Positions 2,376-6,579 of a stretch of DNA of 6,579 nucleotides are shown here, piece after piece. Origin of the DNA: Sporomusa sp. (GTDB lineage Bacteria; Bacillota_C; Negativicutes; Sporomusales; Sporomusaceae). Numbering within the stretch: position 1 is the first letter of the stretch; the number at the start of each line of letters is the position of its first letter. The notes beneath the pieces are model-generated. The model was not told the DNA's origin. It did no database searches and saw nothing but the letters and a program-made list of their open reading frames with translations. The position numbers were made by a program, and so were the translations under genes. The stretch covers positions 1 through 6,579 of the forward strand of contig JAQSXM010000197.1 of the NCBI GenBank assembly GCA_029256645.1, in the 5' to 3' direction.

Positions 2376-2378
2376 TTG
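2359..2378 (+). promoter_or_regulatory. Shine-Dalgarno and TTG start of the large membrane protein
   Basis: AAGGGGGG (2359-2366) is 9 bases ahead of TTG at 2376. The next in-frame ATG, at 2394, would be 27 bases away. The six extra residues (MRHIRK) add positive charge to the cytoplasmic N-terminus. Confidence 0.65.
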
Positions 2379-4727
2379 AGACATATTCGAAAAATGTTTG
2401 TACGCACCTTCATTGCCAATTCCTTTAACCGTGACCTGGTGGTGCTTGTTATTATCAGTGTAGCTATCGGGTCATTTTTAGGAAGTTTAGTATCAAGGGC
2501 TGCTAACTCATATTTTTCAGGAACCATTTCTACCCTTGTTGGCGATTACGGTGAGTTTGATGTTATTATTAATATCCGCGAAGAAATGAAAGCAGAGGGA
2601 CGGGCTCAAGCCGAAAAGATTCTAGCGCAGGTATATCCAGGTGCTAAATTAAAGGAGGGGCCGACCTTAACCGGCTTAACCAGCTTTTTTGTTGGGCTTC
2701 CGGCTGAATATAAGACAAAACAAACCTATGAGGCGCTAGATACTACATTTGGCAGTGTTCCCGGCCGTTCCGGCATTAGTATTATGACTGAACCACGTGT
2801 TACCGTTAAGGGCGTGCCGGAGGGGGCAAGAAACATTATTATTGAGCAGATAATGCAAATAGAAGGGGTGTTATTTGCCTTTCGGGACGGCGGCTCAGTA
2901 ACAGTAATTGTAGCAACCCTGGATAAATCAGCTTATGTCAATGACGAGGTTGAGAAGCTGCTTAAGCAGTATCAGTTGATAGAGATTGCTTTTCCTGTTG
3001 GCAGTGAGCCGGAAAATCCGATTCGGTTGGGTGAACAAATTGCTGAGGGTATCCGGGCCGATAAAGCGGTAGGTTTTGCAGAGAGTGTATCTGCCGATAC
3101 CAAAAATGATGAAATGGTGTACCTGGTGAGTACCATGCTGGAGCTTAAGCGGTTTCTTTCAGCTTATATCACGCAGGTCACTATTACCCCAGCGGCGGGC
3201 ATTAAATTTACACCCGGCGATGTAATCGCTTTTCAGGGATCGGCACCGAGCGAACCGGTAGCCGCTAATGTACCAGAGTCGGGAAATGTTCTGGTCCAAA
3301 TAACTGAGGTTGGCGGCGATGGCTTGGCTAAAGGCATGATTACGCAGGGCGATGGTGCGCAAATGGCTAATAACCAGGGTTATGTAGTTATAAATAATAC
3401 AGTAGGTGCTCAGGCCGGTACGGCGTCAATTCATAATCCGCGGCAGCAGTTAGGGAATGCCCTGAATGAAACAGCTAAACTTGTTGGGCAAATTCCGGGT
3501 TTTGCTCAGGATGCCCAGCAGATGACTACCGTTGCCAGCAGCGCCCTCAACAGCTACGGCAGCAGCCTTGCTGCCATTGAGCAGACCCTGGTAAGTCTGG
3601 AGGGGGCCGGCGCAACCATTCAGTCTGCGACTAGCGGTCTGGCCAATATTAACACCAGCGGTATTCAGGCCCAGCTTGATAATTCCTCGCGTGCTCTAGG
3701 TGGTCTTGTAGGGACATTTCAAGTGATTAAGGTGATAAATCCCGATATTGCCACTTCAATTAATGAGTTGACAACTACGCAGCAAAACCTGGATAATCTC
3801 CGCTCAGGCTTAAGCCAATTAGACAATGTGGCCGCCAATGCCCGCCAGGCGCGTTCGGCGATTGATAATATAGTAGCCAACGGACATAATACTATAGCCA
3901 CTTTACGTGCCTTTGACGTCGATAACGCCAGGCAGACGTTAAACAGTGCCAGTACCCATCTGGCTCAGGTTCAACAGTTTAATACTCCCTTGATTGCGAC
4001 GCAATTACAGGTGCTGGGATCAGCTATTCCCAATCTGCGGGATGATGAAATTAGCCGCTCGATACAGCTTCTGGATAAGGTTATTGCCGGACAGGTAAGC
4101 CCCAGTCAGCGAATTCAGATCTTAACAAATGGCAATATCAGCCCTGATTTTGTTGCACCTGTTATCTATCGTGAAGTGGGGCATAGTAACCTCTCCTTAT
4201 ATAAGTCCGAGCTGGGGGTTGTCGAGCCTGATCCCCGGGCTGAAGTTATGACAATTCTGACCCAGGTCAAAGCCATTCTTGCCGGTATGATTGCGCTCAT
4301 TGCCGCAATCTTATTCTTAGTGCTTGACCATACGGCCATCATGTCGGTCATTCGCCGAAACCGCTCAGTGAATAAAGTGCAGGCCAAAGGGTGGCGCCGG
4401 TTTTTTCAAAGTATAAAAAATACCCTCACTGCACCTGAGTGTTTGTACGGTATGGCGATTGGCGCCACGCTGCTTACCGCTATGTTTATCCTGGCTGGTG
4501 GAGGCATTCCCTATCTGCCCTGGATTGGAGTACCGTTTCTGGGGGCCTTGTTTGGGCTGATTGTAGCTAATAATACAGAGAAGATAAGTCCGGTTTCTAT
4601 CGATGAGGTGACTGCAGGAGAAGCACTGGGGTTGTCATTTGATGAAGTTATGCGGGAGATTGTCATTCCCAATGGTCGCCCTGGCCTCTTGCAAAAACTT
4701 AACCGGCGGAAAATGAAATTTAAATAA
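2376..4727 (+). CDS. Large envelope-spanning membrane protein, probable membrane partner of the downstream ABC ATPase (family not recognised)
   Basis: This 783-residue protein belongs to no family I can name. A basic N-terminus is followed by one membrane span (about 20-40), then an extracytoplasmic part (about 41-628), a span (about 632-653), a basic cytoplasmic loop (about 656-686), two more spans (about 688-709 and 713-731) and a cytoplasmic tail of about 50 residues. One N-terminal span, a giant ectodomain and three C-terminal spans recall FtsX/MacB-type (type VII) ABC subunits, but I see no FtsX or MacB signature. The ectodomain seems to have mixed alpha/beta modules (about 58-270), a beta-rich, glycine-containing module (about 268-345), and a long Ala/Ser/Asn/Gln/Thr-rich helical stretch (about 355-580) likely to form coiled coils. 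The only cysteine is Cys689. The tail (746-772) matches the EAA-loop spacing of ABC importer permeases. The ATPase gene starts 14 bases after the stop, so they are almost certainly one transcript. Substrate unknown. Confidence 0.75.
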   Translation: MRHIRKMFVRTFIANSFNRDLVVLVIISVAIGSFLGSLVSRAANSYFSGTISTLVGDYGEFDVIINIREEMKAEGRAQAEKILAQVYPGAKLKEGPTLTGLTSFFVGLPAEYKTKQTYEALDTTFGSVPGRSGISIMTEPRVTVKGVPEGARNIIIEQIMQIEGVLFAFRDGGSVTVIVATLDKSAYVNDEVEKLLKQYQLIEIAFPVGSEPENPIRLGEQIAEGIRADKAVGFAESVSADTKNDEMVYLVSTMLELKRFLSAYITQVTITPAAGIKFTPGDVIAFQGSAPSEPVAANVPESGNVLVQITEVGGDGLAKGMITQGDGAQMANNQGYVVINNTVGAQAGTASIHNPRQQLGNALNETAKLVGQIPGFAQDAQQMTTVASSALNSYGSSLAAIEQTLVSLEGAGATIQSATSGLANINTSGIQAQLDNSSRALGGLVGTFQVIKVINPDIATSINELTTTQQNLDNLRSGLSQLDNVAANARQARSAIDNIVANGHNTIATLRAFDVDNARQTLNSASTHLAQVQQFNTPLIATQLQVLGSAIPNLRDDEISRSIQLLDKVIAGQVSPSQRIQILTNGNISPDFVAPVIYREVGHSNLSLYKSELGVVEPDPRAEVMTILTQVKAILAGMIALIAAILFLVLDHTAIMSVIRRNRSVNKVQAKGWRRFFQSIKNTLTAPECLYGMAIGATLLTAMFILAGGGIPYLPWIGVPFLGALFGLIVANNTEKISPVSIDEVTAGEALGLSFDEVMREIVIPNGRPGLLQKLNRRKMKFK

Positions 4728-4729
4728 GC

Positions 4730-4744
4730 GGAGAGATGGGCATG
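4730..4744 (+). promoter_or_regulatory. Shine-Dalgarno deciding the ATPase start
   Basis: GGAG (4730-4733) is 8 bases from the ATG at 4742 but only 2 bases from the in-frame ATG at 4736. The later start gives the usual ATPase opening MLVIQNLYKQFG and is preferred; the difference is two residues. Confidence 0.6.
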
Positions 4745-5515
4745 CTTGTTATCCAAAATCTCTATAAACAATTTGGTAGCCTGGTGGCTATAAATGATGT
4801 TAATCTTACTGTTAATAAAGGGAAGACAGTGGTGCTCATGGGGCCGTCAGGCTGTGGCAAGTCAACCACTATTCGTGCGATTAACCGGCTGGTAGAGCCT
4901 GACCGTGGCTCTATCATGCTGAGTGGTGCTAATATCCTGACAATGCAACCCGATGAACTGCGTGATATTCGTAAGCGCATCGGCTTTGTGTTTCAGCATT
5001 TTAATCTTATTAGCCGGTTAACCACCGCTGAGAATGTCATGTTAGGTTTAGTTATGAGCGGTATGAATAAAGAATTAGCCAGGGACAAAGCAATTGAGTC
5101 CCTGAGTAAAGTTGGGTTGGAGAATCATCTGGAGCATCGGCCCAATGAATTATCCGGCGGACAGCAACAACGTGTTGGCATTGCCAGGGCTCTGGCTTAT
5201 GAACCTGAGCTTATGCTCTGGGACGAGCCAACCGCTTCACTGGATCCAATCCTGGTGCGAGAGGTATTGATTGTTATGGAGGAGCTAGCCCGCTATCGAG
5301 CCAGTACTATGCTTGTGGTAACCCATGAACTGCCTTTTGCCCTGCGTGTCGCCGATGAAATCGTCCTGATGGATGAAGGGTGCATTGTCGAGGTTGGTGC
5401 CCCCTCACAGGTTTTTGTTAATCCTGCTTCAGATATCGGGAAGAAATATAAAGAATTAATTGAATACCAAATGAATACCAGTGCCCAAAGCCTGTCGGGA
5501 AATCGCATTGAATAG
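4742..5515 (+). CDS. ABC transporter ATP-binding protein, polar amino acid (GlnQ/HisP)-like
   Basis: This is a complete 257-residue ABC ATPase with all motifs intact: Walker A GPSGCGKST at 34-42, Q-loop Gln85 in VFQHFNL, signature LSGGQ at 137-141, Walker B ending in Asp161 with catalytic Glu162, D-loop SLD at 166-168 and H-loop His195. The Q-loop context (FQHFNLISRLTTAENV), DEPTASLDP and VADEIVLMDEGCIVEVGAP are typical of the GlnQ/HisP group that drives amino-acid importers. Yet no permease of that type and no solute-binding protein is next to it. The partner should be the 783-residue membrane protein 14 bases upstream. It hydrolyses ATP on the cytoplasmic face; the cargo, and whether it imports, exports or does mechanical work, cannot be told. 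The common automatic label 'amino acid ABC transporter' would probably mislead here. An in-frame ATG at 4736 is an alternative start. Confidence 0.93.
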   Translation: MLVIQNLYKQFGSLVAINDVNLTVNKGKTVVLMGPSGCGKSTTIRAINRLVEPDRGSIMLSGANILTMQPDELRDIRKRIGFVFQHFNLISRLTTAENVMLGLVMSGMNKELARDKAIESLSKVGLENHLEHRPNELSGGQQQRVGIARALAYEPELMLWDEPTASLDPILVREVLIVMEELARYRASTMLVVTHELPFALRVADEIVLMDEGCIVEVGAPSQVFVNPASDIGKKYKELIEYQMNTSAQSLSGNRIE

Positions 5516-5560
5516 GTAAAAAAGCACCATGAACAATTTAGTTCATGGTGCTTTTTTACC
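5515..5560. terminator. Bidirectional Rho-independent terminator between the ABC unit and tetR
   Basis: A perfect 20-bp stem (5515-5534 with 5541-5560) closes a 6-base loop, AATTTA. The arms carry A6 on one side and T6 on the other around GCACCATGAAC/GTTCATGGTGC, so each strand gives a hairpin followed by a U-run. The stem's first base is the last base of the ATPase stop codon, and the other end is one base from the tetR stop. It serves both convergent genes. Confidence 0.95.
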
Positions 5561-6327: not shown

Positions 6328-6579
6328 TTAAGCAGAGCAATGACAGGGGTGATAGGAGATTGCCAAATAACCGGTAGCTGAGTTTTTCTGAATCGTGCAG
6401 TCGATTTCATACACATCGCGAATCAATTGCGGGGTTATAATTTTGTTTGGCGGTCCGTAAGTAACAATTGCTCCGTCTTTCATGACATACAACTTGTCAC
6501 AATACATAGCCGCCAGGCTGAGATCATGCAAAGCGGCAAGTACGCCGATGCCAAGTGACTTTACTATAGAAAGCAGTTG
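6328..6579 (-). CDS. FecE/BtuD-type ABC transporter ATP-binding protein, C-terminal part (5' end outside window)
   Basis: The minus-strand frame is open to the window edge and gives the last 83 residues of an ABC ATPase that is usually about 255-270 long. The H-loop is in LAALHDLSLAAMYCDKL, with the conserved His at 6528-6526. Next come YVMKDGAIVTYGPP and TPQLIRDVYEID, the pattern of the FecE/FhuC/BtuD group serving iron-siderophore, heme or cobalamin importers. Walker A, signature and Walker B motifs lie outside the window. The TTG at 6531 is only an internal leucine codon, not a start. The extreme C-terminus is HPCHCSA, which I do not recognise as a family feature. The substrate cannot be told; a binding protein and permease would be expected upstream on the minus strand. 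Confidence 0.88.
   Translation of the reverse strand, partial: QLLSIVKSLGIGVLAALHDLSLAAMYCDKLYVMKDGAIVTYGPPNKIITPQLIRDVYEIDCTIQKNSATGYLAISYHPCHCSA

Follow-up and report, generated by a model that had tools for sequence, protein, structure and literature searches.

An importer-type ATPase beside a giant membrane protein

What does an ATPase of amino-acid importer type do next to a membrane protein with a giant ectodomain? The question is raised by a stretch of 6,579 nucleotides from Sporomusa sp. (contig JAQSXM010000197.1 of assembly GCA_029256645.1; its full length is called here the window). Two open reading frames (ORFs), both open and side by side on the + strand, encode a 783-residue membrane protein (2376..4727, TTG start; called BIG below) and an ATP-binding cassette (ABC) ATPase of the polar amino-acid (GlnQ) group (4736..5515, a 259-amino-acid ORF). 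For the latter, the start is probably the ATG at 4742, with GGAGAG at 4730–4735 (read by eye). The initial annotation of the locus had remarked on the lack of a standard permease or binding protein and, by ORFs and Pfam, no gene for either is found in the window. The pair forms an ABC system whose parts are combined in an unfamiliar way. The best explanation, to which we give about an even chance, is an importer-derived ABC machine that is part of the machinery for outer-membrane biogenesis in diderm Bacillota and acts on a lipid-like substrate.

The ATPase and the predicted coupling segment of BIG

The ATPase presents, in order, Walker A (GPSGCGKS), FQ (Q-loop), LSGGQ, Walker B (LMLWDEP), ASLD, and THE. 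Among solved structures, the closest by sequence is the polar amino-acid ATPase 4yms (E 6.8e-65); in NCBIfam, proV (246 bits) and GlnQ (239 bits) both score under the cut-off. In a tree of 55 rows, the 17 pair ATPases form one clade (98/99), with polar amino-acid ATPases as sister (86/90). The 14 ATPases found beside FtsX-type proteins form a clade of their own (100/99), and the LptB-like group is also apart. Motifs, 4yms match, and tree placement agree with the assignment to the amino-acid importer group made at the outset.

The best-conserved block of BIG is its C-terminal tail (mean 0.88 over residues 751–783), and residues 747–770 hold eight of the 25 invariant columns of the diverse alignment A3. 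Compared by hhalign with polar amino-acid permeases, the tail aligns with the EAA loop at 96.3% (E 1.7e-9) over residues 710–772, a match that covers the permease span preceding the loop as well as the loop itself. The input was the last 169 columns of 87 relatives and the window protein, against 21 permeases (from 22 candidates; six, with weak scores against L086, are less securely of polar type). The full-length BIG profile gives 94.8% against the permeases; the controls reach 7.6% (permease alignment reversed) and no more than 0.3% (five shuffles of the columns). In 27 of 29 genomes matched only weakly by profile A3 (the exceptions are G296 and G074), the match falls at the tail, in frames of 218–264 residues. 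Twelve of these were fetched: all 12 matched again, and the ten scanned are all PF00528 permeases; six of them, and L086, pass the polar-permease model TIGR01726. A single A3 match near E 1e-4 per genome means little by itself; what counts is that they all fall on the same motif.

BIG ends, as predicted from hhalign, profile matches, and conservation, in a coupling segment (residues 744–770; 4605..4685, + strand) like the EAA loop of a polar amino-acid permease. This resemblance explains why the ATPase is GlnQ-like, and the loop and the ATPase both point to descent from a polar amino-acid importer. In a five-span permease, two more spans lie beyond the EAA loop. In BIG, 13 residues remain after the coupling segment; the two further spans are therefore absent, and no match to the permease domain PF00528 is present at E 0.1.

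Conservation of the pair

A protein search with BIG scored 7998 candidates and gave 236 relatives at E ≤ 0.001 (120 listed); BIG is therefore conserved and not a product of chance. Relatives among the matches listed come from Sporomusa, Pelosinus, Thermosinus, Anaerospora, and Dendrosporobacter. They are mostly named "hypothetical protein," and one, P0027, is labeled "ABC-type amino acid transport system permease subunit." The closest among them is P0002 (99%), from a Sporomusa sp. contig. No relative was confirmed by a single-sequence scan of genome contigs; an alignment-based scan gave 108, the best 80 of which were kept and correspond to 74 loci. These (best 80 of 108) belong to Negativicutes genera, Halonatronum (Halanaerobiales), "Peptococcaceae," a "Clostridiales" metagenome-assembled genome (MAG), and many unspecified Bacillota MAGs. 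None of the matches listed for the A3 protein search (at least 120) is from a non-Bacillota phylum, other phyla not having been surveyed otherwise.

A related ATPase (47–83% identity to that of the window) follows BIG in 72 of the 74 loci, after a gap of 11–754 bases (median 37). The two exceptions are L061, where the contig ends within BIG, and L035 (Anaerospora), with no ATPase downstream. In G194 (locus L087), beside lpxC, the two are fused into one frame of 967 residues, with residues 1–694 matching BIG (23%) and 731–965 the ATPase (47%). A short BIG (616–657 residues), matched at both ends and followed by the ATPase and LpxC, occurs in four genomes (L083, L084, L085, and L094). With 72 of 74 loci and one fusion, the gene pair is conserved, as had been proposed: the BIG and ATPase genes are inherited together. 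The initial annotation would have been contradicted by genes regularly apart together with an ATPase seated beside a normal amino-acid permease; this was not observed in the loci examined, L035 being one exception.

Link to the outer membrane

The usual seat of the pair is a lipopolysaccharide (LPS)/outer-membrane (Lpt) operon. In Pelosinus fermentans (L037), the gene order by Pfam is Omp85, unknown, OmpH, OmpH-like (below cut-off), OmpH, LpxD, YjbH, lipid A acyltransferase, BIG, ATPase, LpxC, FabZ-type, LpxA-type, LpxI, LpxB, an ABC protein with a membrane domain (MsbA-like), and Kdo transferase. In Halonatronum (L066), the pair comes after LptF/G, LptC, and OstA/LptD_N-type genes and before LpxC (Pfam). 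No solute-binding protein gene is present among the Pfam-scanned neighbors of these two loci. Within 3 kb downstream, 51 of the 74 loci have LpxC, five FabZ only, and 12 neither; six end too soon.

We surveyed 299 genomes of the phylum Bacillota. Profile A1 matched 60, from which G031 was dropped (its match is an ordinary amino-acid permease), leaving 59 family-positive genomes; the more diverse A3 matched the same 59 and the 29 weak ones described above. Omp85 is above cut-off in 59/59 family-positive genomes versus 17/240 others, LptF/G above cut-off in 57/59 versus 16/240, and LpxC is found in 46/59 versus 16/240. Of the 46 genomes with both LpxC and BIG, 45 carry LpxC downstream of BIG on one contig, and G209 has it on a different one. 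Its start is 0.8–1.25 kb past the end of the BIG match in 44 of the 45 and, in G194, 2.3 kb past a partial match. The co-occurrence of the pair with outer-membrane genes is thus supported. Since the family occurs, in the genomes sampled, only together with outer-membrane genes, and since its usual seat is an LPS cluster, the pair probably helps to build the outer membrane.

Thirteen family-positive genomes have no LpxC match. Among the ten fetched, nine have LptB-, LptF/G-, or OstA-type neighbors and one, L109, is short, with only an LpxB-like gene. The pair being kept in such genomes, its role is probably not tied to LpxC itself. The genomes of L105, L111, L091–L093, L106–L108, and L110, without LpxC match yet with Omp85 and with LptB-, LptF/G-, or OstA-type genes around the pair, hint at an outer membrane whose lipid A is altered or, in its classical form, absent. 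An LpxC-like gene also occurs in a sugar-modification cluster (WbqC, DegT, glycosyltransferase, FemAB, GFO/IDH) in L102 (and, by gene order, in L100 and L101), in a genome without Omp85 match; G088, G155, and G232 are of the same kind.

Topology and fold of BIG

Hydropathy gives four strong spans in BIG, all on the + strand: residues 21–39 (2436..2492; a helix over residues 16–55 in the structure model), 633–651 (4272..4328), 689–707 (4440..4496), and 713–731 (4512..4568). About 590 residues are left outside the membrane. The charges fit cytoplasmic ends, with 5 K+R and 1 D+E in residues 1–20 and 8 and 1 in the loop 652–690. Hydropathy and charge only thus predict four spans and one large periplasmic loop after the first, as the initial annotation had counted them. 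A marginal hydropathy peak at 164–182 is part of the ectodomain in the structure model. In the models, the ectodomain comprises a ferredoxin/ACT-like alpha–beta part (residues 61–200; 2556..2975, with fold matches mostly at residues ∼60–140), a mostly beta part (267–353; 3174..3434), and long helices (356–572; 3441..4091), all on the + strand.

Neither Pfam nor NCBIfam has an accepted match for BIG, and there is thus no confident profile match there to a characterized family, the outcome that would have told against the initial proposal. Weak matches in Pfam, NCBIfam, PHROGs, and PADLOC fall mostly in the helical part and are not taken as kinship. A sequence search of the PDB with the window BIG or profile A1 gives nothing at E below 0.1; the coiled-coil matches of profile A3 there (best E 7.6e-6) are read as helix composition. 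The three fold matches of the ectodomain at E ≤ 0.001, T-protein and two aspartate kinases, have TM-scores on the query no higher than 0.20 and were set aside. The Foldseek match to MmpL5 (TM-score 0.12, root-mean-square deviation 34) was not accepted as kinship either. COG4372/DUF3084, named as a possible new outer-membrane-related protein in the part of Antunes et al. 2016 (PMC5007114) used here, is probably not the identity of BIG; in L065, DUF3084 is a separate gene.

The window copy and its neighbors

A tree of 44 BIG proteins unites the window copy with nine further copies from outside the LPS operon (100/100); this clade is nested with moderate support within the operon copies of Negativicutes. 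Both kinds occur in one genome in P. fermentans JBW45 (L029, L037), P. propionicus (L004, L014), Sporomusa sp. KB1 (L005, L017), and Anaerospora (L035, L008). The window copy is a stand-alone duplicate outside the operon. In Anaerospora, the BIG paralog is directly behind tetR, hlyD, and acrB (RND pump) genes (L035:2986-10343). An FtsH-type protease gene is near stand-alone BIG in L005 (5877–7964, divergent; Pfam) and in L025 and L035 (BLAST cluster).

Upstream of the pair (positions 1–2142, + strand), the window has, by Pfam, cheB (cut), cheR, a response regulator, and a cheX-like gene; on the − strand, a tetR gene (Pfam) is convergent to the pair. A hairpin with A and T runs (5518..5557, + strand), a possible terminator after the pair, was read by eye; a promoter and terminator scan of the window showed no excess over its shuffles, and the hairpin is absent from its output. 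On the − strand, 6328–6579 is an 83-residue open fragment, C-terminal, which by eye resembles an iron/B12-type ABC ATPase and has no Pfam match at 1e-4.

Proposed function and alternatives

The pair would be an amino-acid importer remodeled as an ATP-driven motor in the inner membrane for periplasmic work, assembled probably from two copies each of BIG and the ATPase. With 13 residues after the coupling segment, the last permease spans are gone and small solutes probably do not pass. Driven by ATP, the four spans would instead shift the long helices and the ferredoxin-like domains near the membrane, and the output may be a lipid-like substrate (phospholipid or LPS) lifted from the inner membrane, or a partner driven to do so. 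Lipid or LPS handling is probably the task of the pair. A bolder version, which we hold only tentatively, makes it a new class of ABC system: an importer permease cut after the EAA loop and fitted with a giant ectodomain, which in diderm Bacillota would carry phospholipid or LPS across from the inner to the outer membrane, go back to a diderm ancestor of theirs, and have disappeared along with the outer membrane.

Several points weigh against an importer-derived machine of outer-membrane biogenesis. In the window, the EAA triplet opens with T in place of E. The sister placement of the ATPases (86/90) is under the starred level and comprises three rows, two of them the same gene. The full model of BIG has a predicted TM-score (pTM) of 0.43, which leaves the domain arrangement unsure, and Anaerospora L035 has a BIG with no ATPase behind it. 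The 299 genomes are related, so that Fisher p-values for the co-occurrence overstate independence, and their completeness is unreported. Finally, 13 genomes with LpxC and Omp85 are without the BIG family; an LPS outer membrane is therefore possible without the pair, which is not indispensable. In seven of the ten such genomes fetched (L095, L096, L097, L099, L112, L113, and L114), LpxL or LpxD is directly beside LpxC, at the place expected for the pair; L098 has other genes there, L104 is at a contig edge, and the ORFs of L103 are unresolved.

The position just before lpxC invites another thought, rather unlikely in our judgment, that the pair is a regulator in the manner of FtsEX that switches a periplasmic or membrane enzyme and, for example, sets the balance between LPS and phospholipid. 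LpxC downstream in 45 of 46 genomes, the FtsH-type protease gene near the stand-alone copies L005, L025, and L035, and the FtsX-like topology of BIG would fit, but the pair is kept in the 13 genomes without LpxC match (nine of ten fetched with Lpt-type neighbors) and sequence kinship with FtsX/MacB is unsupported. An ATP-driven pair with a large ectodomain could also release lipoproteins in place of LolCDE in Negativicutes, where LolA/LolB were not found according to the part of Antunes et al. 2016 (PMC5007114) consulted. This is improbable: the pair is also in Halonatronum, of the Halanaerobiales, which the same part credits with LolA homologs, and the annotated loci show LPS and Lpt neighbors, not lipoprotein genes.

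Slightly less credible still is a variant nutrient importer with the ectodomain in place of a binding protein. The GlnQ-type ATPase and the EAA-like loop are what it would need, but the lack of PF00528 at E 0.1, the 13 residues after the loop, the absence of a binding-protein gene from the window, and the LPS-operon seat all speak against it. For the window copy only, the convergent tetR gene and the Anaerospora paralog behind tetR, hlyD, and acrB bring to mind a duplicate that responds to stress, controlled by a TetR-type regulator and used for export or membrane repair. We doubt it strongly, since other stand-alone copies adjoin unrelated genes (radical SAM, flavin reductase, ROK, FGGY kinase in L029) and a convergent tetR gene is no proof of control over the pair.

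The lipid route to the outer membrane is an open question. Taib et al. 2020 reportedly may draw the pair. Among the papers listed in literature searches, no title or abstract opening describes it. Recognizable LptD/E were not found in diderm Bacillota in the part of Antunes et al. 2016 (PMC5007114) used here. A conserved ATP-driven machine amid an LPS operon is a direct genetic target, and the pair could mark the Bacillota that bear an outer membrane.

Comparison with known systems

The Lpt system (LptB2FG–LptC–LptA) is, like the pair, an ABC machine of the same operon region, but BIG has no match to LptF/G (PF03739) at E 0.1 and the pair ATPase is apart from LptB-like rows. No MCE or MlaE Pfam match is present in BIG at E 0.1, a comparison with Mla/MCE by sequence only. 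For RND/MmpL proteins (9mvz MmpL5, 8deu MtrD), there are partial, low-TM fold matches and no MMPL or ACR_tran Pfam match.

The initial annotation had likened BIG to FtsX/MacB-type subunits. In topology the likeness stands, since BIG is predicted to share with type VII systems (FtsEX, MacB, LolCDE, YbbAP) four spans and one large loop after the first. Kinship in sequence is not supported: no Pfam match to FtsX (PF02687) or the MacB core (MacB_PCD) is present in BIG at E 0.1, hhalign against FtsX-type proteins (26 of 28 candidates used) gives 3–5%, the weak alignment being colinear over the last three spans, and the partner ATPases of type VII systems are in another clade than the pair ATPases. 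For YbbAP–TesA, the part of PMC12646458 drawn on here proposes that ATP-driven movement extracts lipids and that no transport path is involved; this system serves only as an analogy for the mechanism proposed above.

Polar amino-acid importers (GlnPQ/HisQMP type, type I; PF00528, TIGR01726) differ from the pair in several ways: BIG is without a complete permease domain, has 13 residues after the loop and a giant ectodomain, and the pair sits in an LPS operon with no binding-protein gene found beside it. In common are the ATPase group and, in BIG, the coupling segment with its preceding span. This suggests that an importer coupling module has been reused for envelope work, a combination that none of the usual ABC types is known to display.

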